Shown here piece by piece: positions 1 through 23,807 of a DNA stretch of 37,588 bases. Every line of letters starts with the position of its first letter. Within the stretch, counting starts at the first letter, position 1. The notes beneath the pieces are model-generated. The model saw only the letters and a list, made by a program, of their open reading frames with translations, had not been told where the DNA came from and made no database searches. The DNA comes from Candidatus Cloacimonadota bacterium (GTDB lineage: Bacteria > Cloacimonadota > Cloacimonadia > Cloacimonadales > JAJBBL01), in NCBI GenBank assembly GCA_019429305.1, contig JAHYIR010000003.1, positions 164,293 to 201,880 of the forward strand, given 5' to 3'. Made by a program: the position numbers and the translations under genes.

Positions 1-2547
1 GCTGGCTGGAGTGGGATCATATGTCACGAAGAATTCTCCAGAGAGTACTTCCCGATTATCTAGTACAGCAAAGGGGTCTTTGTCTCTATTACGTGGAGTT
101 AGCCCTGGGAAAAGATATGTTCCGTCAATTTGGGGTTCAATGTAGGGATTGGCATCAATTAGGTTTTGCCTGTAAAGAAGGCGTGGCATCAACCAAATAT
201 TGCCGATAGGAACTAACAAACCGCTTTCAAATTCAAGTTTATTCCCCAAAGCTGAATATGGCATGGTAGTATTAAATTCCCGTAAGGGATTACCTCCATC
301 AGCTACCAGTCCAGCATAATGAACGGAGGCATCAATCTTGGTACCTTTCCAGACATAAGTTGTTAACTTTGCTTTGATAGCTTGAGTATCAAAAAATTGT
401 ATCTTATCCTGATAGATCTCGCCTTTCTCATAATAGAAATATTCTTCATCGAGTTTTTCACTACCAGAGAATAAATAGCCAATCTCCAGTTTGGTTAGGG
501 GTAAGATATTTGCTTCCATGGTCAGGGATGTCTGACGGGTTGCTCGACTAGTCGCTTCCGTAGCTGTTGCTGAAGCTTTAGCTTGGACAAAGTCTTCGGC
601 ATGAATCAGGGAGTATTTGTATTTATGACTGCCAAAGTCATATTTGAGAATGGCCTTGGGGTTTGCTCCCCAATAGAGTTCGGGTCCAACCAAAAGAGTT
701 AATCCCGGCATAAATTTCTTTCCCTGGAATTCAATTCCATATGGAGCTTTAGCATTCCAGATATCCATGCCTTCCATATCGGTTGCCTCGTACAACAAGC
801 CAAAAAAATCACCTTCATATCCCCAATGATAACGAGGAACATGATAGAAAGTAGTTAGATCAAACTGTTCAGTTCTATAAGAAGCCAGAAAATTGTATAT
901 CTCCACACGCTCAACATCATTGATCTCTCTGGTAGTGTTGACTAGTAACCCGTTCTCATTAAGCTCAGAGACAACTGTTACGTAGGTTTGGCCACGTTTA
1001 CCGTAATATTCTTCGAGCTGTTTATCAACAACGTTACCGAGTATATTCAGTGTGAAATTACCTTCAATACTTCTAATGGGATTAAATTCAAAATCAAGAA
1101 ACAGCATTTCGCCATGAGAGAAGTTTAATCCGTTTTTGCCGTAAGCATCCAATTCTGCTGATCTACCATTAAAAACGAGGTCACCCCGCAAGCTTCCTCC
1201 AGTCATACGGAATGCAAAGGTATCGTGAAAATCGGTTTGCATGAGTCGCATGTCTGCCATTAGTTGTAAGAAATCCATATCAATAGAAGCAAACTTTGCA
1301 TTCATCTCATTTGTATCAACGGTATAGGGATCAATGTTCCAAATATGTGTCATAACATCATAAGCCATTCTTGGTATAGCTATGGAAACTCCATCATCAT
1401 TCGGATACCCCAGACGGCAAATACCAAACCATTCTTCGTTCATATTGTTAAAACCTTCGACATAATCAAAAGCATAACCACCATTACTCCAGGAAGCATT
1501 TTTGTCCTGTACATCCAGATTTACTTCCTGTTTGTACTTCCACCATTCGTCACGCCACTCAAATAGAGTTCCTCCTACAGCGTTTCCTTCTTCACCATGG
1601 CCATAACTCTTATTGTAAATTTCCTGCCAGTTGCCTTTTACGATGTGGGCTTGAGCTGCCTGATCCTCTCTGTATTCCAAGGCATTAAAGGCATCACTGC
1701 CAAATTCTGTAAGCAATATAGGTAGCCCTAATTCTCTGTCAACCGTCGACCACATGTCTGTAAAGCTTATACCACGGTAGGCATTTACACCTATAAGATC
1801 AATTGATTGGCATTTCTCTATTATTAAATCCAGATACTGAATATCACCGTTGACAATAGTAAAAAGATGATTGGGGGCTATCTTCTTGGCTTCTTTTATA
1901 ATATCTTCAAACAGACTGTAAAGATATTTAGCTTTTTCTCTTTGCTGCTCTCCTACAGGTAAATTTTCAATCTCAAAACTAGACCATTCGAGTCCGTAGT
2001 TGCTTTCATTTCCCAGAGCAAAAATAAGTACGCCTGATACATCTTTATACTCGTCTATTAGTTCAAGAATATCTTTTTTCAAAGTTTCCCGCGTAAGTGG
2101 GTCAGCATAATTAGTCTGGGGAATCCAAATCCCACCAACGTTATAACCATATCTGCCCATGAGATGGTTTACGATCGTCATTATACCGTAATTGTGGTAG
2201 ATATACTCTATCCAACGTGGTGGGATTATCCCAAAACTACGGATTGTGTTGATACCCGCCTGCTTCATTAGACTACACTCATAATCTAGAACCTTCATTA
2301 TGAATTCATCCGTATTACCCCAAAGGTTGTAGGAATAATTCTCACCGATTGGGGTATATGCCCAAACTATCCCCTTTACGAAAAAATCCTCATCATTAAC
2401 CTGAATTTTCCAACCATGCTCGTCTCTATGGGTGGTTACTTTCTGTGGTTCTTCAGCCAAGCACTTCGCGGATGCTCCAAACAACAAAATCAATGCTATG
2501 AAACCTATCAATAGATTAGGTTTCTTCACAACAAGGGAATTAATCAT
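1..2547 (-). CDS. Secreted clan GH-A glycoside hydrolase fused to an outer-membrane beta-barrel-like domain (3' end outside the window)
   Basis: Reading from ATG at 2547, the frame stays open for 849 codons to base 1 with no stop, so the gene is partial at its C-terminus. AGGAG lies just upstream of the ATG. Residues 1-31 form a signal peptide ending near KCLA. Residues about 45-420 look like a (beta/alpha)8 glycosidase of clan GH-A: FFVKGIVW near the start, acid/base E181 in FALGNES, and nucleophile E281 in LLTEFGSDAF, the usual 100-residue spacing. GH2-, GH5-, GH72- and GH158-type TIM barrels are the nearest matches I can suggest; I cannot fix the family. From about residue 430 onward there are alternating-residue beta strands rich in Tyr, Phe and Trp with polar loops, resembling an outer-membrane barrel. 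The neighbouring beta-glucan operon suggests a beta-glucan substrate. It lies downstream of the regulator on the same strand and has its own candidate operator at 2594-2605. The hydrolase call is firm; barrel and substrate are inferred. Confidence 0.82.
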   Translation of the reverse strand, partial: MINSLVVKKPNLLIGFIALILLFGASAKCLAEEPQKVTTHRDEHGWKIQVNDEDFFVKGIVWAYTPIGENYSYNLWGNTDEFIMKVLDYECSLMKQAGINTIRSFGIIPPRWIEYIYHNYGIMTIVNHLMGRYGYNVGGIWIPQTNYADPLTRETLKKDILELIDEYKDVSGVLIFALGNESNYGLEWSSFEIENLPVGEQQREKAKYLYSLFEDIIKEAKKIAPNHLFTIVNGDIQYLDLIIEKCQSIDLIGVNAYRGISFTDMWSTVDRELGLPILLTEFGSDAFNALEYREDQAAQAHIVKGNWQEIYNKSYGHGEEGNAVGGTLFEWRDEWWKYKQEVNLDVQDKNASWSNGGYAFDYVEGFNNMNEEWFGICRLGYPNDDGVSIAIPRMAYDVMTHIWNIDPYTVDTNEMNAKFASIDMDFLQLMADMRLMQTDFHDTFAFRMTGGSLRGDLVFNGRSAELDAYGKNGLNFSHGEMLFLDFEFNPIRSIEGNFTLNILGNVVDKQLEEYYGKRGQTYVTVVSELNENGLLVNTTREINDVERVEIYNFLASYRTEQFDLTTFYHVPRYHWGYEGDFFGLLYEATDMEGMDIWNAKAPYGIEFQGKKFMPGLTLLVGPELYWGANPKAILKYDFGSHKYKYSLIHAEDFVQAKASATATEATSRATRQTSLTMEANILPLTKLEIGYLFSGSEKLDEEYFYYEKGEIYQDKIQFFDTQAIKAKLTTYVWKGTKIDASVHYAGLVADGGNPLREFNTTMPYSALGNKLEFESGLLVPIGNIWLMPRLLYRQNLIDANPYIEPQIDGTYLFPGLTPRNRDKDPFAVLDNREVLSGEFFVTYDPTPAS

Positions 2548-2823: not shown

Positions 2824-3882
2824 TTAACTACCCTTCAAGGGAGTACATGACTCTCTTTTTATTAATTTAGCTTCCATAATCACATGCAGATAATCCTTGT
2901 TTTCTCCTCTTATTTCCGAGAGTAATATTTCCAAAGCTTTCTTAGTCATTTCCTTGATGGGAGCTGCGTTAGTAGTGAGAGCTGGGAAAACCTTGGAAAC
3001 CACTAGAATATCGTCAAAGCCGATGAAACTGATATTTTTTGGTACGTTAAGTCCACTTTCCTGAACTACTTTCATCGCACCAATAGCCATCGAATCATTA
3101 GCACACAAAATTGCTGTAGGGTGCTGGGGAAGTCGTAGAAAATATTTACCACCTCTTTCTCCCGATTCGTATGAATAATCACCTTTAAAGATTAGCGAGG
3201 TATCCAATTTAAGTCCAAATTTATTCAGAGCACTTTTGTAGCCAAGTAGGCGGTCTTTGCAAACATCAGAATTCAGCAGCCCAGAAATGAAACCAATACG
3301 CCTGTGCCCTAATTCAAGGAGATATTCAGTGGAAATTTTGCAGCTGTTAAAATTATCTATAGTTACTGAAGGGATAGACTTGTCAGCAGCAATATTATCA
3401 AGTAAGACAATAGGTAAATATCGCTTTATTTCCTGGATTTTCTCCTCGATCCGAGGAAAACAACAAATTATTACTCCATCAATTTTTTTAAGCTTTTTAA
3501 TGGGGTTCAGATCATCAAAATTAGATAGCAGCAGAAGATTATAACCATTTTTGCGAACTTCTTCCTCCAGTGATTTGAAGACTAGAGAATAATACGGGCT
3601 AGAAATACCATCCTTTATCTCTTTATCAAGAAAAAAGCCAATGTTGTTGGTCACTTTGGAATTTGTCTTCTTGTAGCTAACAAAAGTTCCCTTAGTGGCC
3701 AATTTGTAGAGAATCCCTTCCTCTACTAATTCTGATACTGCTTTGCGAACTGTCATGTAGGAAACGTCGAGTCTCTCTGCCAAAACCCTCTCACCTGGCA
3801 ACTTGTTGACAATTGAACCGTTACTGATGTTCTCCTTGATTTTATCTTTGATCTGGATATATTTATATAATTTCTTGCTCAT
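2824..3882 (-). CDS. GntR/LacI hybrid transcriptional regulator (AraR-like architecture)
   Basis: This is a sugar-responsive regulator. Residues 1-70 are a GntR-type winged helix (KLPGERVLAERLDVSYMTVRKAVSELVEEGILY). Residues about 80-350 are a LacI/periplasmic-binding-protein-type effector domain, with IDGVIICC, GHRRIGFISG, PTAILCANDSMAIGAM and ISFIGFDD all recognisable. This pairing is known from Bacillus AraR and related sugar regulators. I chose ATG 3882 over ATG 3918 because the helix-turn-helix domain begins directly after it and AAAGGAG lies 13 bases upstream. The gene sits between the GH-A hydrolase (same strand) and the GH16-led operon (divergent), so it probably represses both until a glucan-derived sugar binds. 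A related box overlaps its own leader at 3904-3917, suggesting autoregulation. The inducer is unknown. Confidence 0.92.
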   Translation of the reverse strand: MSKKLYKYIQIKDKIKENISNGSIVNKLPGERVLAERLDVSYMTVRKAVSELVEEGILYKLATKGTFVSYKKTNSKVTNNIGFFLDKEIKDGISSPYYSLVFKSLEEEVRKNGYNLLLLSNFDDLNPIKKLKKIDGVIICCFPRIEEKIQEIKRYLPIVLLDNIAADKSIPSVTIDNFNSCKISTEYLLELGHRRIGFISGLLNSDVCKDRLLGYKSALNKFGLKLDTSLIFKGDYSYESGERGGKYFLRLPQHPTAILCANDSMAIGAMKVVQESGLNVPKNISFIGFDDILVVSKVFPALTTNAAPIKEMTKKALEILLSEIRGENKDYLHVIMEAKLIKRESCTPLKGS

Positions 3883-3903
3883 AAATATTCTATAGCTCCT
3901 TTC

Positions 3904-3917
3904 TGTTATATATAGCA
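3904..3917. promoter_or_regulatory. Candidate autoregulatory operator TGTTATATATAGCA
   Basis: This near-palindrome is 22 bases upstream of the chosen regulator start. It shares TATAGCAAT with the palindrome at 4107-4118, but its half-sites are two bases further apart. It is the weakest of the three candidate boxes. Confidence 0.35.
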
Positions 3918-4077
3918 ATCCAATTTATGTTTTATTTCTTGAGTGCGCTTTTGATTACGCATAGCTATAATATAATGTATTCCTTAAAAAATAATTGCAT
4001 ATAGTCGTCAAGAAACTTTTATCGAGAGCTTATAGGTTTTTTTACTGAATGATATATGCAAAAAAAGAGGAAAAAGC

Positions 4078-4175: not shown

Positions 4176-6362
4176 ATGGCAATTAAAACACTTAATTTGT
4201 TCCTAGGAGCGATAATAGTATTTTTCATCTTTGGTTGTGACAAGATAGCAGCTCCTGACCCTGTAGCAGATCCTTCTGATCCCGTAAATTATGTGTTGGT
4301 TTGGCAAGACGAGTTCAATCAGACTTCGTCTATTCCGGACGAAAACAATTGGAATTATGACCTTGGTTACGGAGATAACGGATGGGGTAATGATGAATGG
4401 CAGCAATATACAAATTCTCCGGAAAATGTTAGGGTAGAAGATGGCAATCTAGTGATTTCAGCAGTCTGGGATTCTTTAAATTATTCTGTTCCCGGTAAAC
4501 GTGATGGTTCCATCACCTCTGCCCGAATCAACACCAAGAACAAATTTTCTTTCAAGTTTGGAAAGATTCAAGCTCGAATCAAAGTTCCCACAGGAACAGG
4601 TATATGGCCTGCTTTCTGGATGTTAGGGAAGAATTTTGACTTTGTTGGTTGGCCACATTGTGGTGAAATCGACATCATGGAAATTAGTACATTGCTACAT
4701 AATAATAAAACGACCATGTGTGCAATCCACTGGTGGGACGAATCAACAGAATCTTATAAACACTATACCCAAACAAAACAGTTGAAAGAACCCTTATCAG
4801 CCGACTATCACATTTACGAAATTGAATGGGATAATCGGAGAATTGTTGGTAAGATCGATAATATCGTTTATTTTGTGAAGGTAATAGAACCGAGTACTAT
4901 GGATGAATTTCTTAAAGAGTTCTTTATAATCTTCAACGTAGCAGTTGGTGGCACTTTGGGGGGGGCTCCGGATTTCACCACCAATTGGCCAGAGAAAATG
5001 TATGTCGATTGGGTCCGAGTTTATCAAAGTGAAGAATCTCTGATTCCGATTAAAACTTTTGGTATCTTTACTGAAGAAACGCCCGTAGATGATGCTCTGG
5101 AGATTGGCGTTAATGCCGAGATTTATGTTTGGGAAAATACTCTTACTACTGGATCGATTCCACCCTATGAAGGGCAGTATGTTATATCTTGGTCTACTAC
5201 CGGACAAGGCTGGTTTGGAGCCGGCATAAAATCAAATTCACCACTTGACCTTTCCAATTTTACCGAAGGTAATATAAAGTTTATGATCAAGATGCCGCCT
5301 AATGTAAGTTTCAAGATAGGTTTAAATGATGCTCTGGGGGTTGAAAGCTACGTATTATTCCCAGCCCATCAAACAGCATTCGGTTTGGTACGAGATGGTG
5401 AATGGGGACAAGCTGTGATACCCGTTGAAGAGATCAGAGGAAATACCGATTTAGAAGTTCTTGATTATGTATTTATCATATTGGAAGAGAATGGTGTTCA
5501 GTGCCAGTTTGCTATCGATGATATTTATTGGGATGACGGAGGAACTTCTGCAAGTAGTATATATTTTGATCAGAACAGTTATTCTGTAGATGCGACTAAT
5601 GCCACAATTATTGTGGATGATATTGCAGCTAGTGGTGAAAATGTATCTGTAGATATTACAAATGGAACTGATACGATTAGTCTTATGATAAATCTTGGTA
5701 GCAATGGTATTGGTCAGGGAACACTTAATTTTGGTCTTACTGATGACGATACGGATACCATTACTATTACTGAGGGTGGTTTTATAACTGCATCTTACAT
5801 TGATAGCAATGGATTATTAAGAACTGATACTGCGAATATTACTAGTGGTAGTAACCTGGAAACTATTGGTATTTATTCGGAAACCCATACTGATCCTATG
5901 CTTGTCTATAGCCAGATCATTAATAGTGCTGATTGGAGTGGAAATTCAGCGGAACCAAACGAACAAAGTACTGCAGTAAAACCAGCAGATGGGATTTATG
6001 TACTTTCGGTTAACTTTACCGATCTTGGTGCCGGCTGGGGTGGGATTGCATTTGACTTTGGAGCTCAAGACATTTCATCATATTCCACTTTTGTGATCAA
6101 TATTGATAGTTCTAATATGCCCAATTTGGCATATTTTGGTATTAAGTTTGAAGATAACACAGGAGGAAGCAAAGAGGTTGATCTGGCATTATATAAACCT
6201 GTGGTTTTTGGTAACTGGTCTCGATACGAAATTCCAATGAGTCATTTTTCAACAGTAGATTTGACCTCTGTGAAATATCTCGGTTTGTGGAACCCTTACA
6301 CCAGCAATAATGACTACATTGTCGGAACCCTATATTTTGATAATATCTACTTAGCAAAATGA
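4176..6362 (+). CDS. GH16 endo-beta-1,3-glucanase (laminarinase) lipoprotein with C-terminal binding modules
   Basis: It should cleave beta-1,3-glucans such as laminarin in endo fashion at the cell envelope. Residues 1-20 are a lipoprotein signal (IFGC, lipid-anchored C21). Residues about 40-287 are the GH16 jelly roll, with the catalytic signature GEIDIMEI giving nucleophile E164, D166 and acid/base E169; the VGGTLGG and VDWVRVYQ elements are typical of laminarinases. Residues about 290-450 and 575-728 are beta-sandwich modules of the CBM/galactose-binding type, each ending in a strand with a D-D-I or D-N-I motif. Residues 455-570 are a Thr/Asp-rich Ig-like stretch between them. At 728 residues it is much longer than a bare GH16 domain (about 250). 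It is the first gene of the operon, with GAAAGGAT before the ATG and 10 bases to the next gene. Family assignment is firm; exact linkage preference is inferred. Confidence 0.93.
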   Translation: MAIKTLNLFLGAIIVFFIFGCDKIAAPDPVADPSDPVNYVLVWQDEFNQTSSIPDENNWNYDLGYGDNGWGNDEWQQYTNSPENVRVEDGNLVISAVWDSLNYSVPGKRDGSITSARINTKNKFSFKFGKIQARIKVPTGTGIWPAFWMLGKNFDFVGWPHCGEIDIMEISTLLHNNKTTMCAIHWWDESTESYKHYTQTKQLKEPLSADYHIYEIEWDNRRIVGKIDNIVYFVKVIEPSTMDEFLKEFFIIFNVAVGGTLGGAPDFTTNWPEKMYVDWVRVYQSEESLIPIKTFGIFTEETPVDDALEIGVNAEIYVWENTLTTGSIPPYEGQYVISWSTTGQGWFGAGIKSNSPLDLSNFTEGNIKFMIKMPPNVSFKIGLNDALGVESYVLFPAHQTAFGLVRDGEWGQAVIPVEEIRGNTDLEVLDYVFIILEENGVQCQFAIDDIYWDDGGTSASSIYFDQNSYSVDATNATIIVDDIAASGENVSVDITNGTDTISLMINLGSNGIGQGTLNFGLTDDDTDTITITEGGFITASYIDSNGLLRTDTANITSGSNLETIGIYSETHTDPMLVYSQIINSADWSGNSAEPNEQSTAVKPADGIYVLSVNFTDLGAGWGGIAFDFGAQDISSYSTFVINIDSSNMPNLAYFGIKFEDNTGGSKEVDLALYKPVVFGNWSRYEIPMSHFSTVDLTSVKYLGLWNPYTSNNDYIVGTLYFDNIYLAK

Positions 6363-6372
6363 GGTATCAAAG

Positions 6373-8328
6373 ATGAAAAAAAATATACACTATAAGACAA
6401 GACCCGAAGATAGGATCTCTCTAAAACAAAAATCTGCCTATGCTGTAGGAATGTTCGTAAACAATCTGCAGGCAGCAGCTCTTCCAGCTATGGTTGTAAT
6501 TCTCAATCTCGGACTGGGCATGGACGTTTTGTTAGTAGGCCTCATTGGTTCAATTCCCCGCATTTTTGACGCTATATCTGACCCACTTGTGGGATATATT
6601 TCAGACAACACTCGTAGCAAATGGGGTCGGCGAAGACCTTTCATTTTTATTGGTGCTCTATTGGCAGGTTTGATCTTTGCTGTGATGTGGCAGGTTCCCT
6701 CCGGTTACATTAATATATTAGGTAAAAACCCGATCATGCATCATCAAACCATAAATTTGGAAACCCAGGATGCGATTATAGATGATAATGGTGGGCTTTC
6801 AATCAACTACGACACAGGAAAAAAAGATGTATCCTATGTACTTTATGGTCCAGAGCTATTATCGACAACAAATGAAATTGGATTTTCTACAGATCTTGAT
6901 GGTTTTCCCCAGTTCGAGATGAATGTAAAGTTTCCTGCTTATGAATCGTTACAGATCGTTATTAAAGAAGCCGAGTCAGATGTCGTGGAGTTTCCTGAGT
7001 CTTATTATCTTGAACTTTCTCTCGAGGATTCAGAAGAGGGTAAAGGTAACTTATATAAATTCAATATTGCGGACTTTCAACAGCTTGATCCAAATCTTGA
7101 ACAGCACGGAAACGGTTTTCTTGATATTCAGTCGATAGAAAGTATCAGAATCAATCTTACTGGAATGGATGACACCGGTACTGCTGTCTTAAGTTCTTTC
7201 AAGATGAGAAAAAGTGAAGACTTCTTTATTAAATATTTTGTTTACTTCCTTGTCATGTCAATCCTTTTCTTTCTTACTTATACAATCTATGCTACTCCCT
7301 TTGTCGCTTTCGGTTATGAAATGACTCCCGATTATCATGAGCGAACAAGACTACATACTTTTGCAAATACAGCAGGTCAGTTAGCCTGGTTAGGGGTTCC
7401 CTGGTTTTATGCGATTATGTCCAGTGCACTATTCCGGGACACAGTACATGGAGCGCGTACACTGGCAATATTTGTTGGTATAATCGTGGCAAGTCTTGGG
7501 GTCATTCCGGCAATTTTCCTAAGAGAAACACAGGTTCTGGAACCTGTGCAGAAAGTTGCCAAAGGATTGTGGAAAAACTTAAGCGAATTTTTCAAGGGGA
7601 TTGGAACCACCTTTAAATGTAAACCCTTTGTTAAGCTATGTGCTGCTACATTTTTAGTGTTTAATGGCTTTCAGTTGGGTACTTCGTTCGCGATTTATGT
7701 GATGATCTATTATTTATTCAATGGTAATGATGGCAGTGCTGGAAAATTGCTTGGCTGGTATGGAATGCTTACTTCCATCGCTACTTTGGGAGTTATCCAA
7801 CTTACCGGTTGGATAGCTACCAGAATAGGAAAGCGAAAAACATTTTTGATTACAATATCCATTTCTATTATAGGATATGCTCTTAAGTGGTTTGGCTACA
7901 ATCCGATTTACCCCTATTGGCTGCTTTTTGCTGCACCACTTGTAGCTTTTGGTTCAGGATCCCTCTTCACTTTGATGGGGGCAATGATCTCTGATGTCTG
8001 TGATTATGACGAGTTGAAGACTCACAAGAGACGAGAAGGTCAATTTGGAGCGATCTATTGGTGGATGGTGAAGATAGGAATGTCTTTGGCTGGACTTCTT
8101 ACGGGAGTACTACTCAAGGTCTCAGGATTTAATCTCGCCTTAGGAGCTGGTCAGGAAGAACGAACTCTCTTTCTCTTGAGAGTTTTCGACGTTGGAATAC
8201 CAATCATAACTTCTGCAATAGCTATCTGGATTATAGCCAAGTATCCCCTTACCGAAGAGAGAGTCTATCAGATCCGAGCAGAGCTTGAGGAACGTCATAA
8301 AAAAGTTCTTGAGAACAAGGAATCCTAA
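6373..8328 (+). CDS. GPH-family (MFS_2) sugar:cation symporter with a periplasmic beta-sandwich insert
   Basis: This is an inner-membrane symporter of the glycoside-pentoside-hexuronide family (MelB-like), probably importing beta-gluco-oligosaccharides. It has the family's loop 2-3 motif SDPLVGYISDNTRSKWGRRR (residues 69-88) and about 12 hydrophobic segments. The N-half loop EMTPDYHERTR and the C-half VCDYDELKTHKRREG are family hallmarks. At 651 residues it exceeds the usual 450-500 because about 175 residues (109-284) are inserted between helix 3 and helix 4. By MelB topology that loop faces the periplasm. The insert is soluble, rich in beta strands, and ends in a strand pattern like small galactose-binding or CBM folds. 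The gene follows the GH16 gene by 10 bases and precedes the GH30 gene by 23, so uptake is co-expressed with depolymerisation. Transporter class is firm; substrate is inferred from context. Confidence 0.9.
   Translation: MKKNIHYKTRPEDRISLKQKSAYAVGMFVNNLQAAALPAMVVILNLGLGMDVLLVGLIGSIPRIFDAISDPLVGYISDNTRSKWGRRRPFIFIGALLAGLIFAVMWQVPSGYINILGKNPIMHHQTINLETQDAIIDDNGGLSINYDTGKKDVSYVLYGPELLSTTNEIGFSTDLDGFPQFEMNVKFPAYESLQIVIKEAESDVVEFPESYYLELSLEDSEEGKGNLYKFNIADFQQLDPNLEQHGNGFLDIQSIESIRINLTGMDDTGTAVLSSFKMRKSEDFFIKYFVYFLVMSILFFLTYTIYATPFVAFGYEMTPDYHERTRLHTFANTAGQLAWLGVPWFYAIMSSALFRDTVHGARTLAIFVGIIVASLGVIPAIFLRETQVLEPVQKVAKGLWKNLSEFFKGIGTTFKCKPFVKLCAATFLVFNGFQLGTSFAIYVMIYYLFNGNDGSAGKLLGWYGMLTSIATLGVIQLTGWIATRIGKRKTFLITISISIIGYALKWFGYNPIYPYWLLFAAPLVAFGSGSLFTLMGAMISDVCDYDELKTHKRREGQFGAIYWWMVKIGMSLAGLLTGVLLKVSGFNLALGAGQEERTLFLLRVFDVGIPIITSAIAIWIIAKYPLTEERVYQIRAELEERHKKVLENKES
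6697..7224 (+). other. Extra domain inserted in the periplasmic loop 3-4 of the GPH symporter
   Basis: These bases encode residues 109-284 of the symporter, between the segment ending FAVMWQVP and the one beginning FFIKYFVYFLVM. The region has no hydrophobic helices. It shows alternating strands (QFEMNVKFPAY, LQIVIKEAE, YYLELSLED) and ends in SIRINLTGMDDTGTAVLSSF, reminiscent of galactose-binding-like domains. It may bind sugar beside the transporter. The fold call is by eye only. Confidence 0.6.
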
Positions 8329-8351: not shown

Positions 8352-10058
8352 ATGTCTGAAAGAAAGTTGTTAACTCAAATATACCCGATTATAATCCTGA
8401 TCTTATTCCTTAATCTCTATGCGTTATGGGGAGATGCAACAAACACCTATTATGGGATCTATTCCACTACCGAAATCTTGTTAACCTCGTCTGCCGGAGA
8501 GAAACTTGCTTTACAGGAAAATGTCGTTTTCACAAAAGGAAAGGCAGAAGGGACGATAGTTCTTGTATATCCTGAGATTTTGAAGCAGACGATTGAGGGT
8601 ATCGGAACATCCTTCACAGAGTCCTCAGCTTTTGTTCTTGCTCATTTAGATAAACAAAAGAGACGAAACGTCATGGAGAACATTTATAGCGTGAAGGGGG
8701 CAAATTTTTCCTTAGCTCGCACTGTTATCGGATCCTGCGATTTCAGCGTGAAAGGAAAGTATTCTTATGCAGACGTTCCCGATGATACTTTGTTGGAAAG
8801 CTTTGATATTGCTCCAGATAAGGAAGGTTTTGATCGCGCTGAATTTCCTGGGATCAAAGATGAGAGCTATGATCTTCTGCCAATGATCAAGGAAGCTCTC
8901 GCCATTAAGAACCAGCAAAGCGACAAAGAATTGAGAATAATATCTTCAGCTTGGACTGCTCCTGCCTGGATGAAGGATATCGAAACTTGGTATATTCCTG
9001 GTTCCCCTGAAAACAACTGGCAAGGTACCGGCGGTACACTAAAAGAACAATATGTCTCGATATATGCTGATTATTTACTCAAATACCTTGATGCCTCCAA
9101 GGATGAGGGAGTTAATATCTGGGGATTGACACCTGTCAACGAACCGCATGGCAATAATGGTCAATGGGAAAGTATGAGTTTTACCCCAAAATCGCAGAAT
9201 GACTTCATCAAATATCACCTGGGTCCTCGATTAAAGTCCAGTGTTCATTCTGATGTAAAACTACTTATCTACGATCAAAACCGTGATGGTTTGGAACATT
9301 GGGCAGATACGATATATAATGATCCAGAAACGACTCCTTACCTTTATGGAGCTGCAGTTCACTGGTATGCAAGTACATACAAGGTGTATGAAGATGTTTT
9401 TGATCGGGTTCATGAAAAATATCCAGATTTCGTGATTCTGCATACCGAAGGGTGTATCGATGATCTGGGTAAAGATGCGCCAGATGGGGTAACCGACCCC
9501 GATGGCTACAAAGAATCAAATTGGTTTGACAATGATGAGTTCTGGTGGAGTAAGAGTGCAACAGACTGGGCATATTCGGTCACTTGGGAAGGTGTGATAG
9601 CTGATGATCATCCTATGTACACTCCAGTTCATAGATATGCCAGAAATATTATAGTAAGTATAAATCACTGGCTTACTGGCTGGATCGATTGGAACATAGT
9701 GCTCGATCGCAATGGTGGACCTAACCATGTGGGGAATTTCTGTGGTGCCCCGATTATGATAGACACAGAAACTCAATACGTTTATTACACTCCTGTATAT
9801 TATATTCTCTCCCAATTCAGTCGAACAATACGCCCTGGTGATAGAGCAGTTCAGACTGATATTATTAGCGGTGGGCTCGAAGAAGATGATCTTCATGCCT
9901 GCTCCACGTTAAATGAGGCAGGGTTGTTGAGCGTTCAAATCTTGAATACTAGCAGTAAACCGATTAAATACAAGTTGCAGATCGGTTATGATCATGCCAA
10001 TATTGAAATTCCTGCAAACTCTGTTCAAACCGTCCGTGTTCAATTACCGAAGGTCTGA
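8352..10058 (+). CDS. GH30 secreted beta-glucanase/glucosidase (likely beta-1,6-glucanase)
   Basis: The first 29 residues are a signal peptide or membrane anchor (hydrophobic IIILILFLNLYALW). The catalytic (beta/alpha)8 domain shows the GH30 pattern: IEGIGTSFTESSA near residues 78-90, SAWTAPAWMKD near 198-208, acid/base E264 in TPVNEPHG, and nucleophile E366 in LHTEGC. The last 90 residues form the beta domain that accompanies the barrel in this family. GH30 includes glucosylceramidases and endo-beta-1,6-glucanases; within a laminarin-type locus, removal or cleavage of beta-1,6 branches is the most sensible role. Its TGA overlaps the first ATG of the GH17 gene by one base, implying translational coupling. 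The family is firm; the subfamily is inferred. Confidence 0.92.
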   Translation: MSERKLLTQIYPIIILILFLNLYALWGDATNTYYGIYSTTEILLTSSAGEKLALQENVVFTKGKAEGTIVLVYPEILKQTIEGIGTSFTESSAFVLAHLDKQKRRNVMENIYSVKGANFSLARTVIGSCDFSVKGKYSYADVPDDTLLESFDIAPDKEGFDRAEFPGIKDESYDLLPMIKEALAIKNQQSDKELRIISSAWTAPAWMKDIETWYIPGSPENNWQGTGGTLKEQYVSIYADYLLKYLDASKDEGVNIWGLTPVNEPHGNNGQWESMSFTPKSQNDFIKYHLGPRLKSSVHSDVKLLIYDQNRDGLEHWADTIYNDPETTPYLYGAAVHWYASTYKVYEDVFDRVHEKYPDFVILHTEGCIDDLGKDAPDGVTDPDGYKESNWFDNDEFWWSKSATDWAYSVTWEGVIADDHPMYTPVHRYARNIIVSINHWLTGWIDWNIVLDRNGGPNHVGNFCGAPIMIDTETQYVYYTPVYYILSQFSRTIRPGDRAVQTDIISGGLEEDDLHACSTLNEAGLLSVQILNTSSKPIKYKLQIGYDHANIEIPANSVQTVRVQLPKV

Positions 10059-11170
10059 TGATGAATAAGTTGGCTATTTTTTTCTCATTTTTTTCAATTG
10101 TAGCTATCTTGCTCTCAGCATGTACAAACAACAGGCAAGATATTGAAACCAACTATAATTTGGAGGAATTACGAAACAAACTCTTAACAGATCAGGAGTT
10201 TGAAAGAGCTACACCTTTTGTGGAGAGGGAGTTTTCATCATGGTTAGATGGTAAATGGATCGGTCAAGCTGTTTCCTATGGTTGCTATAGGGAAGGTCAG
10301 GCACCTGGGAGATTAGGTCCTAGCAAGGATGAAATCTTGGAGGATCTTGAAATCATCATCAAACATTGGAATCTCATCAGAGTGTACAATGCCGACGAAG
10401 ATACCGAGAGGATTTTGGAAGTTATCGAAGAAAATGATCTCCCCATTAAAGTAATGTTGGGTATTTGGTTGGAAAATGAAGAAAACAATATGCAAGCTAG
10501 AAGATCAAACATAGAAAATACTCTTCGCGGGATTGAGCTAACCAACAATTTTCCTGATATCGTAAAAATTGTGAATGTTGGTAATGAAACACAAGTATTC
10601 TGGTCTGGTCATAAGCTGGAAACAGCAAGTCTGATCAGATATATTCGAGCAGTCCGTAATTATACCTCCGTTCCGGTAACCACCGCCGATGACTACAACT
10701 TTTGGAACAAAGCTGAAAGTAAGGTAGTTGCGGATGAGCTTGATTTAATAGTAATCCATATTTATCCTCTTTGGAATGGTAAAACTCTGAATAATGCCAT
10801 AGACTGGTTAGATGAAACCTATAAAATAGCACAAGACGAACATCCACAAAAAAATCTTATTTTAGGAGAAGTGGGATGGGCAACAGATTATGATCCAGAA
10901 AAGAAGGGTGAAGGCGAGCAGGGTACGTTGGTCAAAGGTGAAGTGAGCGTTGATGCTCAGGAGATATTTCTTCTGGAACTTGATCAATGGGTACATAAGA
11001 ATAAAGTTATAACCTTTCTCTTTGAGGTTTTTGATGAACCTTGGAAAGGTGGTGGAGAAGCTTCAGGTCCCAATGATATTGAGAAGAATTGGGGCGTATT
11101 TTTTCAAGATCGTAAACCAAAAATTTCTTTTATCAACTACCAAAGTAGAAAAGAACAAAAAGATTATTAA
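10058..11170 (+). CDS. GH17 beta-1,3-glucanase-like lipoprotein
   Basis: A lipoprotein signal ends in LLSAC, with lipidated C22 when counted from the first of two tandem Met codons. The rest is a bacterial GH17-type TIM barrel: AVSYGCYREGQ at the start, acid/base E177 in VNVGNET, the IVIHIYPLW strand, and nucleophile E271 in LGEVGWATD. GH17 enzymes act on beta-1,3-glucans by hydrolysis or transglycosylation, so this one probably trims laminarin fragments made by the GH16. At 370 residues the length is normal. The start overlaps the GH30 stop by one base (ATGATG; the second ATG at 10061 is equally possible). The next gene starts 20 bases after its stop. Confidence 0.9.
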   Translation: MMNKLAIFFSFFSIVAILLSACTNNRQDIETNYNLEELRNKLLTDQEFERATPFVEREFSSWLDGKWIGQAVSYGCYREGQAPGRLGPSKDEILEDLEIIIKHWNLIRVYNADEDTERILEVIEENDLPIKVMLGIWLENEENNMQARRSNIENTLRGIELTNNFPDIVKIVNVGNETQVFWSGHKLETASLIRYIRAVRNYTSVPVTTADDYNFWNKAESKVVADELDLIVIHIYPLWNGKTLNNAIDWLDETYKIAQDEHPQKNLILGEVGWATDYDPEKKGEGEQGTLVKGEVSVDAQEIFLLELDQWVHKNKVITFLFEVFDEPWKGGGEASGPNDIEKNWGVFFQDRKPKISFINYQSRKEQKDY

Positions 11171-11190: not shown

Positions 11191-13245
11191 ATGAAAATAG
11201 CAATAGTTTCTTTTACCACAGCGTTTATCATGTTGATAAGCTCTGTAGTTTTTGCCCAGTACATGATAGTCGATTTTGAGCCGGCTGGAGTTGGTGCCGA
11301 TTGGAATTGGACAGTAGGGGAAAATGGTGACAATCCACCCCTGGAGTTTATTGCCAACCCAGTAAGTGGGGGTATAAACACCTCCCCAACGGTGGCTCAG
11401 TTTACAGCTCGAAGTTCAGGTCAGAGCTGGGCTTTGTGTTTTACTAGTGATATAGACCCATTTATTTTTGATACCTCCAACACGATAGTCAAGATAATGG
11501 TCTATAAACCAGTCATTAGCAATGTGGGGATAAAATTCGAAGGTGTCAGTGCCCCAGCTGAGATTCTAATTCCTAATAGCGTAATCAACCAGTGGGAGGA
11601 ATTGACTTTCGATTTTTCAGCTTTTATTGGTAATAACTACAATCTCATGGTAATCATACCTGATTTTGCACCAAGAGATCAGGACAATCTGATCTATTTT
11701 GATAACATCCAGATTCCCTCGGAAAACACAACACCTCCTGCTGAACCTACTGAACCCGCACCGACACCAACGGTTGATCCTGCATATGTGATCTCTTTGT
11801 TCAGTAATGCCTATGATGACGTACATGTTGACACCTGGTCTGCTGAATGGGACGATGCAGATGTAACTGATATCCAGATTGAAGGCGTTGATACCAAACT
11901 CTACACCAATCTTGTTTACGCAGGGATAGAATTTGTTTCACAGACCATTGATGCGACAGGTATGACTCATTTCCACATGGATATCTGGACACCTGATCCC
12001 ACCGATCTTCCTGCTGTTTTCAAGATCAAGTTAGTAGATTTTGGTGCTGATGGTGTCTGGGGAGGCGGAGATGACGTTGAACATGAACTGACCTTTGATG
12101 CTACGACTACACCACCCTTGGTAAGTGAATCCTGGATCAGTTTTGACATTCCACTTTCTGACTTTGTCAACTTAACCACTACAGGTCATCTAGCCCAATT
12201 GATCATTTCGGGTGATCCTAATACAGTATATGTGGATAATGTGTATTTTTACAATTACTCGACACCTCCCGGCAGTGATGCCACTCTCAGTGATCTAAAA
12301 TTAGATGGAGTGACCATAGAAGGTTTTTCACCTTTCACTCAAAACTATATTTATGGTATGCAGGAAGGAATTGTGGTAATTCCCCAGATCACAGAGGTCA
12401 CTACTACCGATCCCAATGCCACCTACGAAATTACTCAGGCATCCACTATTCCTGATGCTGCATCTGTGTTGGTAACTGCCCAGGATGGTATCACCACGAT
12501 TACCTATACGGTTTCTTTTGTGATTATGTATCCCAACTCAGTTCCACCTATCCCGTCACATGCTCCTGAAAATGTGATATCATTGTTCAGCGATGCTTAC
12601 ATTGATGTTCCTGTAGATACTTGGCTAACACCATGGTCTGATGGGGTTTTGGAAGAAGTTGAGATCGCGGGTAATCCTGTTAAGAAATATACCTTGGTAA
12701 ACTATGTAGGAATTGAGACTGTTGGCCCTAATCTGATCGATGTATCTGACATGACACATCTTCATATAGACCTTTGGACTCCTGATGCCAATGATTTTAA
12801 GCTTAAGCTAGTTGATTGGGGTGCTGACGGAAACTGGAGCGGTGGCGATGATACTGAACATGAATTGATTTATCCAACACCTGCTACAGGGCAATGGATA
12901 TCTTATGACATACCCTTATCAGACTTCATCAACTTAGATATCACCGGACACATGGCACAATATATATTGTCAAAACCACCATTGGGAACCATGTATATTG
13001 ACAATCTGTATTTCTATGCAATTAGTCTTGATATACCCGCCAATGTAACCATTATTGCTACGACTAACGAGGTAATAATTAGCTGGGATCCTGTTCCTGG
13101 AGCGACCTCATATACGGTATATTCCTCGGATGATCCCTATGGCACTTATGAACCAGTTTCTGATGGCGTTTATGAAAATACAAGCTGGACTTCATCCAAT
13201 ACCGGTTCTGCAAAATTCTATTATGTAACGGCCAATAGTGATTGA
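11191..13245 (+). CDS. Secreted non-catalytic multi-module protein with duplicated putative beta-glucan-binding domains
   Basis: A strong Shine-Dalgarno (AAGGAGAG) precedes the ATG and residues 1-22 are a signal peptide ending VVFAQ. Residues 23-178 form one beta-sandwich, followed by a Pro/Thr linker (about 180-198). Residues about 200-350 and 450-605 are two copies of one module sharing VISLFS-AY, VDTW, MTHxHxDxWTPD, GADGxW and GGDDxEHEL. Between them (355-440) lies a cadherin-like beta-sandwich, and the end (610-684) is a fibronectin-III-like repeat. I see no glycosidase active-site motif. The repeated module resembles domains I associate with laminarin-degrading enzymes and surface glycan-binding proteins of marine Bacteroidota, from memory and unverified. 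The likely role is glucan capture. It lacks both a lipobox and the FlgD-like sorting tail seen in other secreted proteins of the window, so how it stays at the cell is unclear. Confidence 0.8.
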   Translation: MKIAIVSFTTAFIMLISSVVFAQYMIVDFEPAGVGADWNWTVGENGDNPPLEFIANPVSGGINTSPTVAQFTARSSGQSWALCFTSDIDPFIFDTSNTIVKIMVYKPVISNVGIKFEGVSAPAEILIPNSVINQWEELTFDFSAFIGNNYNLMVIIPDFAPRDQDNLIYFDNIQIPSENTTPPAEPTEPAPTPTVDPAYVISLFSNAYDDVHVDTWSAEWDDADVTDIQIEGVDTKLYTNLVYAGIEFVSQTIDATGMTHFHMDIWTPDPTDLPAVFKIKLVDFGADGVWGGGDDVEHELTFDATTTPPLVSESWISFDIPLSDFVNLTTTGHLAQLIISGDPNTVYVDNVYFYNYSTPPGSDATLSDLKLDGVTIEGFSPFTQNYIYGMQEGIVVIPQITEVTTTDPNATYEITQASTIPDAASVLVTAQDGITTITYTVSFVIMYPNSVPPIPSHAPENVISLFSDAYIDVPVDTWLTPWSDGVLEEVEIAGNPVKKYTLVNYVGIETVGPNLIDVSDMTHLHIDLWTPDANDFKLKLVDWGADGNWSGGDDTEHELIYPTPATGQWISYDIPLSDFINLDITGHMAQYILSKPPLGTMYIDNLYFYAISLDIPANVTIIATTNEVIISWDPVPGATSYTVYSSDDPYGTYEPVSDGVYENTSWTSSNTGSAKFYYVTANSD

Positions 13246-13355
13246 TGTTATTTGCTATCTGACAAGTAAAAAGCGGGTATTAAAACCTACATATCCGGCG
13301 TTAAAACTATAAATTCTGGCAGCTATTCAAGGTTCTGCTAAACAAGAAATAATTA

Positions 13356-13387
13356 GATCAGCCGGTACACTAATGTATCGGCTGATC
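13356..13387. terminator. Strong hairpin inside the operon, between secreted and cytoplasmic enzyme genes
   Basis: GATCAGCCGGTACA (13356-13369) pairs with TGTATCGGCTGATC (13374-13387) over 14 bases with one G-U pair and a CTAA loop. No U-run follows, so it is a poor intrinsic terminator. It may be an attenuator, an RNA-stabilising or processing structure. It sits in the only long gap (182 bases) of the operon, 40 bases before the phosphorylase start. Confidence 0.5.
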
Positions 13388-13427
13388 TTACTTAAATATG
13401 TATCATCAGAAATAGAGAGTAAATATT

Positions 13428-16400
13428 TTGAAATTAAGTAAGGAATCTAAGTATCAACTTTTTCCTGATGGTGAGTTCATAATCACTGATTACAACTCGG
13501 TTAAGCCATTTTCCAGTTTCTTTCCAGGCATTGCCGGTAAGAAAGGGATCCCCTTATGGACATTTTATGTAAATCGCGGGCAATGCATATGTAGCATGGG
13601 TATGGAAGGAAAACATCGTCCAATAATGGAATTTCTGCCAGCTAACTGGGCATATAATCTTGTTTCTACTCAGGGATTCAGGACTTTCATTAAATCCCTA
13701 AGTCAATCAAGTTTGGAAATCTATGAACCTTTCCAAAACAATCTGTGGGCTCAAGATAGTGAAAAGATCCAACGCATGATCATCTCACCGGTCAAGTTGA
13801 CCCTTGAGGAAGAAAATATTACATTGGGTCTGAAGTTTATCGTGGAATATTTCAATGTTCCACAAGAAAATTATGCCGCTTTAGTGCGCAGGTTATCCAT
13901 TCTGAATCTTAATACTGAACCCAGAACCCTTCAGGTTATTGATGGCCTGCCACTGATCGTTCCCTATGGTCTTGAAGACTATGGCTTGAAACATATGAGA
14001 CGCCTATTTGAAGCATTTATGGAGGTCACTAATATCGAAAACAGAGTTCCCTTTTATAAATTGAAAGTGGAACCAACTGATCGTCCGGATGTTGTTAAGA
14101 TCAGCAAAGGTAATTTCTATCTTGGCTTTGGACCTGATAACAAACTTGTTCAGCCAATTTATGATCCAGCTAAAATATTCGGTATTCGAGGTGACTATAG
14201 TTATCCGGAAAATATTCGCAATACTGTCTTTGAAGAATTAGCATCCGGTCAGATCTTTGAAAACCGTCTTCCTTGCGCGATGGGTTCTTTTGAAACCACA
14301 ATAGACTCAAAAAGCACATATACATATACTTCAGTAATCGGTCATACAAGTTCTGTTTTGGCACTGAATGAACTGGTATCAGATATAGTTCAACCTGGAT
14401 TTATTGAGAGAAAGGCTAATCAAAATCAAGAAATCGTAGCGGCATTAACCCAAAAGAGCTTTATATGTAGCTCAGAACCGTCATTGGACCATTATGCAAG
14501 GCAGAATTTTCTTGATAATGTACTGCGTGGAGGATTCCCGGAAACTATCAAAGGTCGGCAAACTATTACCACGCTACATCTTTATTCTCGGAAGCACGGA
14601 GATCTAGAACGTGATTACAACGACTTTCGCCTGACTCCCACACCCTTTTCACAGGGAAATGGAAATTTCAGAGATGTGAATCAGAACAGACGTAGCGACC
14701 TTTTTTTCAATCCCGATGTCCTGGCTGGTAATGTAAAACAATTTGCTGACTTGATCCAACTAGATTGTTTTAATCCGTTGGTGATCAAAGAGGTCAGTTT
14801 CAAGATATTAGATCAAAACAAACTCAAAGAGATAGTATCTCGCTACTTTTCTGATAACATTAACTCTATTGTCGAATATCTGCAAGAAATATATACCCCT
14901 GGAGAGTTGTTAATTTACCTAAATGAACATGGCTACATTTTAAAGGGAGATTCTGAAGCTTTTATCGGTGATCTACTAGGAATCAGCGAAAAGATTTATA
15001 GAACCGAACACTCTGAAGGTTTCTGGACAGATCATTGGACTTATAATCTAGACTTACTGGAAAACTACCTTTCTCTTTATCCGGAGAAGCAGAATCATAT
15101 TTTGTTCGAAGATAAGACATTCACTTTCTACGATAACTCACATCATGTCCAGTCTAGAGAAGATAGGTATATGATCCGTGAAGGAAAACCTATGCAGCTG
15201 GATTCAGTAGTTTTAGATACTGAAAAAGAGCAGCTAATCAGGAAACGGGGTGATGATCAGCTCAAGGTTAGGATTTTGTACGGATTAGGCGAAGTCTATT
15301 ACACTACATTATTCGTTAAAATGCTTTCTCTGATTGTGAACAAGCTTGCTTCTCTTGATCCTGAAGGTATTGGTGTAGAAATGGAGGGAGGTAAACCAAA
15401 CTGGTATGATGCTTTGAATGGATTACCCGGTCTGTTTGGTTCAAGCATCTGTGAAACACTTGAGATTAAGCGACATATACTTTTTTTATTGAATGCTATT
15501 AGCTTTAAGGATAATGAGAACGATATTTGTCCAGTTTATGAAGAACTGGGAGAATTCCTTCAAACTATGCAAGATCTTTTAGGAGCACCTTTATCTTCAT
15601 TCGCATTTTGGGATAAAGCTAATCTAGCTAAAGAAAGTTACCGTGAGAAAACCAAGCTGGGTGTCAGTGGAAAAGAGAAAGAGCTCTCTTTCCAAGAGAT
15701 TACCAGTTTCCTAAAAGCAGGACTCAGTAAATTGGATGTTGGGATCAACAAGGCTTTCAATAATGAGTACAAAGTTGTTTCTTCTTACTTTATCAATGAA
15801 GTTATCGAGTACGAGCAGATTAAGAATGCTGGTAGTGATAGCCCCAAACTCAGTGCAAGAGGATTGCCCTGTTTCAGAGCTAAAAAATTCAGGCAAATAC
15901 CTCTACCTCTTTTCCTCGAGGGACCTGTCCACTATCTGCGCTGCACCTCTGACCAGGAAGAGGTCCTTAAGCTTGCTAACAATGTTAGAATCAGTCCACT
16001 CTACGATCAGAAATTGATGATGTATAAGGTCAATGAATCCCTGGAAAGCCAACCTATGGAAATTGGTAGGGCTAGGACCTTCTCTCCAGGTTGGTTTGAA
16101 AATGAATCTGTTTGGTTACATATGGAATACAAGTATATGTTAGAACTCTTGCGAAAAGGGCTATACAGTCAATTTTTCCAAGATTTCAAGCAGGTATTTG
16201 TACCCTTCTTCGATCCGGAATTTTATGGCAGAAGTATTCTGGAAAACTCATCCTTTATAGTTAGCAGTGCCAATCCTGATACCTCGTTACATGGAAATGG
16301 GTTTATGGCACGTCTGAGCGGAGCTACAGCAGAATTTATTAGTATTCTCTATCTGATGACGATGGGAGAAAAACCATTTATCTTAGACCAGGATGGAAAC

Positions 16401-16727
16401 TTGCAGCTTTCCTTCAGACCCGTTTTGCCTGGCTGGTTATTTACAGAAGAATTAAAAACAAGCAGATTGCTGATCCAGGGTAAATGGCAGGATGTGAACT
16501 TTGCGCCCAACACCTTCAGTTTTATGTTTTTAGGAAATATCCTAATTACATATTATAATCCCAATAGAAAGAACACATACGGACCTGACGGAGTATCTCC
16601 CAATCGATGGAATCTCCTTGAACCTGATGGAACTTCACAGATCATCCAAGGCAATTGTGTCACGGGTGAGATTGTTGCCAAGATTCGCGACCGCAAAATC
16701 ACTAATATTAAGATAGAACTATCTTAG
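13428..16727 (+). CDS. Beta-1,3-oligoglucan phosphorylase, GH149-like (GH94/GH161 relatives)
   Basis: It should phosphorolyse beta-1,3-gluco-oligosaccharides to alpha-glucose-1-phosphate in the cytoplasm, which saves ATP. There is no signal peptide. The N-terminal FFPGIAGKKGIPLWTFYVNR, the WTDHWTYNLDLLENYL segment near residue 530, and EGGKPNWYDALNGLPGLFGS near 650 have the look of the GH94/GH149/GH161 phosphorylase clan. The 1099-residue length matches GH149 (about 1100) rather than GH94 (about 800). GH161 is the main alternative. The start is TTG: the next in-frame Met is deep inside the conserved N-terminus, and a weak GAGAG precedes the TTG. A 182-base gap with a hairpin separates it from the binding-protein gene; the GH3 gene follows after 39 bases. 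The neighbouring GH16/GH17/GH30 genes fit a beta-1,3-glucan substrate. Confidence 0.75.
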   Translation: MKLSKESKYQLFPDGEFIITDYNSVKPFSSFFPGIAGKKGIPLWTFYVNRGQCICSMGMEGKHRPIMEFLPANWAYNLVSTQGFRTFIKSLSQSSLEIYEPFQNNLWAQDSEKIQRMIISPVKLTLEEENITLGLKFIVEYFNVPQENYAALVRRLSILNLNTEPRTLQVIDGLPLIVPYGLEDYGLKHMRRLFEAFMEVTNIENRVPFYKLKVEPTDRPDVVKISKGNFYLGFGPDNKLVQPIYDPAKIFGIRGDYSYPENIRNTVFEELASGQIFENRLPCAMGSFETTIDSKSTYTYTSVIGHTSSVLALNELVSDIVQPGFIERKANQNQEIVAALTQKSFICSSEPSLDHYARQNFLDNVLRGGFPETIKGRQTITTLHLYSRKHGDLERDYNDFRLTPTPFSQGNGNFRDVNQNRRSDLFFNPDVLAGNVKQFADLIQLDCFNPLVIKEVSFKILDQNKLKEIVSRYFSDNINSIVEYLQEIYTPGELLIYLNEHGYILKGDSEAFIGDLLGISEKIYRTEHSEGFWTDHWTYNLDLLENYLSLYPEKQNHILFEDKTFTFYDNSHHVQSREDRYMIREGKPMQLDSVVLDTEKEQLIRKRGDDQLKVRILYGLGEVYYTTLFVKMLSLIVNKLASLDPEGIGVEMEGGKPNWYDALNGLPGLFGSSICETLEIKRHILFLLNAISFKDNENDICPVYEELGEFLQTMQDLLGAPLSSFAFWDKANLAKESYREKTKLGVSGKEKELSFQEITSFLKAGLSKLDVGINKAFNNEYKVVSSYFINEVIEYEQIKNAGSDSPKLSARGLPCFRAKKFRQIPLPLFLEGPVHYLRCTSDQEEVLKLANNVRISPLYDQKLMMYKVNESLESQPMEIGRARTFSPGWFENESVWLHMEYKYMLELLRKGLYSQFFQDFKQVFVPFFDPEFYGRSILENSSFIVSSANPDTSLHGNGFMARLSGATAEFISILYLMTMGEKPFILDQDGNLQLSFRPVLPGWLFTEELKTSRLLIQGKWQDVNFAPNTFSFMFLGNILITYYNPNRKNTYGPDGVSPNRWNLLEPDGTSQIIQGNCVTGEIVAKIRDRKITNIKIELS

Positions 16728-23698: not shown

Positions 23699-23807
23699 GT
23701 TAACCCCATTTTGTCTGTACTTTAACAAATACCGACAGAAGCCGGTGTTACCCTAAGGAAGACTGTTAAAAGCCCCCTGATTATGAATCTATTGTTTAAA
23801 TATTATT

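Follow-up and report, generated by a model that had tools for sequence, protein, structure and literature searches.

Few polysaccharides are as abundant as laminarin and related β-1,3-glucans, and their entry through the outer membrane of bacteria outside the Bacteroidota is poorly known. Can a single polypeptide both cut such a glucan and admit it? The question is raised by a glucan locus of a Candidatus Cloacimonadota bacterium, analyzed here as a window of 37,588 nucleotides (contig JAHYIR010000003.1, positions 164,293 to 201,880). A minus-strand reading frame that is open at the window edge had been read in the initial annotation as a glycoside hydrolase fused to an outer-membrane β-barrel. 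Recovery of the 3′ end from the source contig gave the complete gene, which encodes 1041 residues and has a stop codon (C3:163714-166839; L001:922-4047). The protein ends in NDYEFQTGFYFRYTF, the classic pattern of the last strand of an outer-membrane barrel. The signal peptide, the GH-A motifs GNE (E181) and TEFG (E281), and the single uninterrupted frame described in that annotation were all confirmed. The coordinates of the gene, its predicted parts, and its neighbors are collected in Table 1.

Table 1. The hydrolase-barrel gene, its predicted parts, and neighboring genes (positions in the window).
Feature	Position	Strand	Remarks
Hydrolase-barrel gene, first 849 of 1041 codons	1..2547	-	Remaining 192 codons left of the window (L001:922-1500)
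Predicted outer-membrane β-barrel, first ~405 of ~597 residues (residues 445-1041)	1..1215	-	
Helical linker, residues ~407-444	1216..1329	-	Overlaps the end of the GH domain as drawn
GH-A (α/β)8 catalytic domain, residues ~33-425	1273..2451	-	Nearest GH158/GH157 endo-β-1,3-glucanases
E281, nucleophile	1705-1707	-	
E181, acid/base	2005-2007	-	
Type I signal peptide, residues ~1-32, ending in GASAKCLA before EEPQ	2452..2547	-	From sequence; AlphaFold2 helix 9-28 in a homologue
GntR/periplasmic-binding-type regulator	2824..3918	-	Upstream, same direction; precedes the hydrolase-barrel gene in most Cloacimonadota
GH16 β-glucanase, lipoprotein signal (FIFGC)	4176..6362	+	
MFS_2 sugar transporter, inner membrane	6373..8328	+	
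GH30 with signal peptide	8352..10058	+	
GH17-like lipoprotein	10058..11170	+	PDB GH17, E 8e-18
Exported all-β protein, probably glycan-binding	11191..13245	+	No Pfam family above cut-off
GH161 β-1,3-oligoglucan phosphorylase, no signal peptide (cytoplasm)	13428..16727	+	9qqk, E 4e-222
GH3 β-glucosidase, no signal peptide	16767..18674	+	

In a cross-phylum alignment of 78 rows (77 homologues and the window protein), the two catalytic glutamates never vary. With a sequence profile of the enzyme half, GH158(Pro) (9oro, E 5.6e-7) and BuGH158 (6pal, E 8.6e-7) rank highest among solved structures; the single-sequence match to GH158 is weak compared with the profile search (E 0.01). Foldseek with the full-length model also returned GH158(Pro), BuGH158, and GH157, all β-1,3-glucanases, as its best matches. 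By profile and predicted fold, the enzyme half is nearest to the GH158/GH157 endo-β-1,3-glucanases, with β-1,3-glucan as the putative substrate. The hydrolase-barrel protein shares with GH158 the GH-A TIM barrel, the Asn-Glu acid/base, and the C-terminal Glu nucleophile, and the catalytic residues of BuGH158, N136/E137 and E220, are arranged in the same way (PMC7157763). Another shared trait is a β-1,3-glucan locus in which GH16 and GH3 also occur. The GH158 enzymes are lipoproteins within SusCD loci, with a small Ig-like domain at the C-terminus (PMC7157763), whereas the hydrolase-barrel protein has a predicted 595-residue outer-membrane barrel in place of this domain and occurs without SusCD; in the model, the Ig-like domain that shapes the cleft of BuGH158 is absent, and the linker and barrel stand there instead. 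A study of Woeseiaceae reported GH158 in such loci, with the gene not specified (PMC12175321).

A Pfam search gave a weak match to the GH2 TIM barrel (PF02836) in 28 of 31 homologues, at best 3.8e-10, and a match to GH72 in six; the window protein itself had no PF02836 (Glyco_hydro_2_C) match. Membership in GH2 was rejected, as the match is weak or absent and the N-terminal sandwich domains of GH2 are missing. It is because of this weak match that the Bacteroides finegoldii homologue (WP_022275059.1) is listed by NCBI as ‘glycoside hydrolase family 2 TIM barrel-domain containing protein’. Such names, together with the lack of any model for the barrel half, may have kept the fusion hidden.

The barrel half was modeled by AlphaFold2 in a homologue that is 72% identical to the window protein (L035), with a 78-row alignment (pLDDT 88.8, pTM 0.78). 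The model consists of a TIM barrel up to residue ~410, helices at 411-441, and then ~26 antiparallel strands at 445-1039, mostly 7-17 residues long. The barrel-like region, first put at more than 400 residues, is thus predicted to span ~595 residues in ~26 strands, and the model places no CBM or sandwich module from residue 430 onward. The linker is 38-47 residues in all homologues, a nearly constant length, and its sequence is the most variable part of the protein (entropy 2.63). Strand amphipathicity in the barrel half exceeds that of shuffled sequences (Fisher p 1.3e-7 over strands). On a strand-free measure of alternation, the window protein scores z = 3.1 and the family averages 2.6, against 2.9 for LptD, 1.5 for LamB, -0.4 for the protein’s own enzyme half, and mostly ~0 for soluble controls, one of which, MalM, reaches 1.7. 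The shuffle tests are free of circularity, whereas the inward/outward composition is partly circular because the phase is set by hydrophobicity.

Turns of 2-6 residues alternate with long loops along the barrel, with two exceptions, 843-862 and 991-1001; the former is 20 residues long at a position that should hold a short periplasmic turn. Most of the long loops are conserved across phyla, in contrast to ordinary porins, and several of them strongly so, with a mean entropy of 0.4-1.6 bits (568-601, 623-629, 745-768, 794-832, and 967-977). Such conservation is unusual for surface loops and suggests a function. The terminal aromatic/hydrophobic strand is kept in every complete homologue and, together with the signal peptide and the amphipathic antiparallel strands, provides the features of an outer-membrane barrel that is a client of BAM. 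The barrel half has no sequence match in Pfam, NCBIfam, or the PDB, and hhalign against LptD, LamB, OmpC, FhuA, PgaA, and the window’s own TonB receptor gave probabilities below 1%; we therefore claim no known barrel family. The full-length fold search is uninformative on this half, since all of the top 50 Foldseek matches fall on the TIM barrel. From secondary structure, we predict that the C-terminal half is an outer-membrane barrel of ~24-26 strands, which would close in the membrane.

Both halves travel together. A scan of species genomes found at least 579 relatives in one collection, 80 of which were kept for analysis. Along nearly their full length, the homologues show 36-76% identity, and each is one open reading frame, three being cut by contig ends. 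The fusion occurs in more than ten phyla, with hosts among the Gammaproteobacteria (Woeseiaceae, Thiotrichales, Hahella), Geobacteraceae, Myxococcaceae, Gemmatimonadota, Krumholzibacteriota, Eisenbacteria, Zixibacteria, Delongbacteria, Ignavibacteriota, and Bacteroidota. Within the Cloacimonadota, full-length homologues (63-76% identity) are present in 18 of 125 genomes of the phylum, and no barrel without a hydrolase was found there, the apparent half-proteins all lying at contig ends. The search for homologues that keep both halves gave a uniform answer: separate profiles of each half had one strong match per genome, in the same reading frame, in 40 of 40 genomes from many phyla. The tree of homologues largely follows the phyla. 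The presence of both halves in one frame across phyla and the shape of this tree argue against a chance or assembly fusion; as judged from sequence comparison, the hydrolase-barrel fusion is real and old. An in-frame join of a P-type ATPase-like fragment to a barrel half at one contig start (L010 1-80; G012:C16) looks like an assembly chimera.

The genes around the fusion are those of glucan breakdown. In the flanks of the 80 loci, GH16 is found in 54, GH149/GH161-type phosphorylases in 27, GH30 in 22, and GH1 in 10. GH161 is a β-1,3-oligoglucan phosphorylase, and the phosphorylase of locus L054 is a GH149 (PDB 6hq6, E = 0), an entry that the PDB also names β-1,3-oligoglucan phosphorylase. A phmmer test, which is a weak one, found no TonB receptor in the homologue flanks. 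The source genome encodes two TonB receptors, both more than 30 kb from the hydrolase-barrel gene, and no SusD, in agreement with the earlier description of a glucan locus without SusC/SusD. The exported all-β product of the window, 684 residues with repeated halves, is possibly a glucan-binding surface protein. Between its gene and that of GH161 lies a near-perfect inverted repeat (13355-13388, 15-nt arms, 4-nt loop) that is terminator- or operator-like. Farther on, at 21302-23728, the window encodes an 808-residue protein that has a pair of lamin-tail domains and, at its C-terminus, a weak match of FlgD_ig/CHU_C type.

A possible partner is encoded directly downstream, outside the window, where a gene for a 206-residue lipoprotein begins 12 bases past the stop codon (L001:289-909). 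Its lipobox cysteine is invariant. The lipoprotein gene adjoins the fusion gene in 36 of the 80 loci, generally as a single copy, in Cloacimonadota, Delongbacteria, Gammaproteobacteria, Geobacteraceae, and all Myxococcaceae sampled. The Bacteroidota lineages lack it and have instead a larger downstream lipoprotein that clusters with GH16/CBM-type proteins. The small lipoprotein is predicted to be helical (pLDDT 90) and possibly TPR-like; searches by sequence and by fold found no relative in the PDB. The genome of locus L065 encodes an 806-residue paralogue (L122:1631-4048, +) in which the lipoprotein domain precedes a divergent barrel copy. This domain, which is 39-49% identical to the lipoproteins (E 2e-29), occupies the place of the hydrolase, and several GH-A enzymes are encoded separately nearby. 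Such a ‘Rosetta stone’ fusion argues that lipoprotein, barrel, and hydrolase act jointly on one side of the membrane. In a second reading frame of the same genome (15913-17931), a GH-A domain is combined with a domain that weakly resembles the lipoprotein (E 1.5e-4).

Which side of the membrane is this? Known outer-membrane barrels have a periplasmic C-terminus, and counting turns back from it places both barrel ends on the periplasmic side. The enzyme would then be periplasmic, except in the case that the linker passes through the pore in the manner of autotransporters. The surface enzyme first proposed was not established. The C-terminal strand and the pattern of short and long turns put the barrel ends on the periplasmic side; by this default topology, the enzyme half is most likely periplasmic. 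It is the gene neighborhood that suggests that the barrel admits oligosaccharides. Computation shows the fusion, the conservation of its catalytic residues, a predicted barrel, the locus, and the pairing with the lipoprotein. On these grounds, we consider it probable that the protein is a single-polypeptide outer-membrane endo-β-1,3-glucanase, a hydrolase-channel for laminarin-type glucan, of which we infer the substrate, channel function, and sidedness, as well as the role of the lipoprotein.

In the proposed mechanism, the BAM machinery would insert the C-terminal barrel of ~24-26 strands into the outer membrane, and the helical linker of fixed length would hold the GH-A domain at its mouth, with the small helical lipoprotein from the adjoining gene as a partner in many lineages. 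Fragments produced by surface GH16 and binding proteins would traverse the barrel and be cut on entry by the attached enzyme, most likely at the periplasmic face. GH17 and GH30 may then trim the fragments, the MFS carrier may move them into the cytoplasm, and the GH161/GH149 phosphorylase and GH3 would complete the breakdown. A broader reading, in which the family is an unnamed and widespread glycan importer of the outer membrane, formed by an obligate hydrolase-channel and a dedicated lipoprotein, independent of TonB and SusCD, and cutting β-1,3-glucan while admitting it in more than ten phyla, is offered tentatively and with less confidence.

The same parts could build a self-anchored surface enzyme of the autotransporter kind, in which the hydrolase is exported through or with its own barrel, the helix remains lodged in the pore, and the barrel serves for anchoring instead of sugar passage. 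The order of signal peptide, enzyme, helix, and C-terminal barrel is shared with type V systems, as in type Va autotransporters with enzyme passengers such as EstA, whose barrel also ends in an aromatic residue. The near-constant linker is long enough to span the membrane, and many conserved long loops lie on the presumed outer face. We nevertheless regard an autotransporter as unlikely: the barrel, with 24-26 strands, is twice the size of an autotransporter domain, none of the 31 members searched matches the 12-strand Pfam family (PF03797), and the gene has a fixed place in glucan loci. The variability of the linker is odd for a helix packed in a pore, and the lipoprotein domain can stand in for the enzyme at the same N-terminal place. 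Although the constant linker length fits both readings alike, the large barrel and the exchange of hydrolase for lipoprotein favor the hydrolase-channel.

Export of a self-made polysaccharide, with a barrel that secretes glucan and an enzyme that edits it, would resemble PgaA/PgaB or BcsC. Exporters of the PgaA/BcsC type are likewise built from an N-terminal periplasmic domain and a carbohydrate-related C-terminal barrel, and some hosts of the fusion are autotrophs, such as Thiomicrorhabdus (L059). Their N-terminal domain, however, is a TPR domain rather than a hydrolase, and the barrel of PgaA has no profile similarity to the one described here. The neighbors are degradative enzymes, phosphorylases, sugar importers, and regulators of LacI/GntR/ROK type, with no recurring glycosyltransferase cluster in the flanks, which makes export very improbable. 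We give even less credence to a soluble all-β module, either a sandwich array or a propeller, in the C-terminal half. That half has no sequence relation to any known barrel, but ~26 consecutive antiparallel strands, turns of 2-3 residues alternating with long loops, the lipid-like alternation, and the terminal strand of every complete homologue speak against such a module, and no CBM or sandwich family is matched.

The hydrolase-channel resembles SusC/SusD in pairing an outer-membrane barrel with a helical lipoprotein in a glycan locus, but it has no TonB plug and no homology to either protein, and its enzyme is built into the barrel protein. Pfam finds no Plug or TonB match in it, and the N-terminal half is a glycoside hydrolase. 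Corallococcus GluM, by description, is another outer-membrane β-barrel protein with glucanase activity, a β-1,6-glucanase (PMC10971235). The parts of the hydrolase-channel are known in kind: a GH-A glucanase, an outer-membrane barrel, and a lipoprotein. GluM, an Oar-type protein, is not known to have a GH-A domain. Our searches of the open-licence literature yielded no account of a glycoside hydrolase joined to a barrel of the outer membrane. As judged from the libraries and open-licence papers searched, this combination appears to be new, as do the barrel and lipoprotein families.

If the hydrolase-channel is real, it would be a passive, one-gene alternative to SusCD, spread over Gammaproteobacteria, Geobacteraceae, myxobacteria, Gemmatimonadota, Cloacimonadota, gut Bacteroides, and others, and perhaps an overlooked route for algal and fungal glucan into the cell. 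Cultured hosts include Leucothrix, Thiomicrorhabdus, Flavobacterium, and Bacteroides. The gut homologue of B. finegoldii (L115, NZ_OY725931.1) has GH16 and GH3 nearby and no SusC/SusD annotated near it. This sequence is labelled plasmid 29 and carries valyl-tRNA ligase and rpsA; it is probably chromosomal rather than a plasmid.
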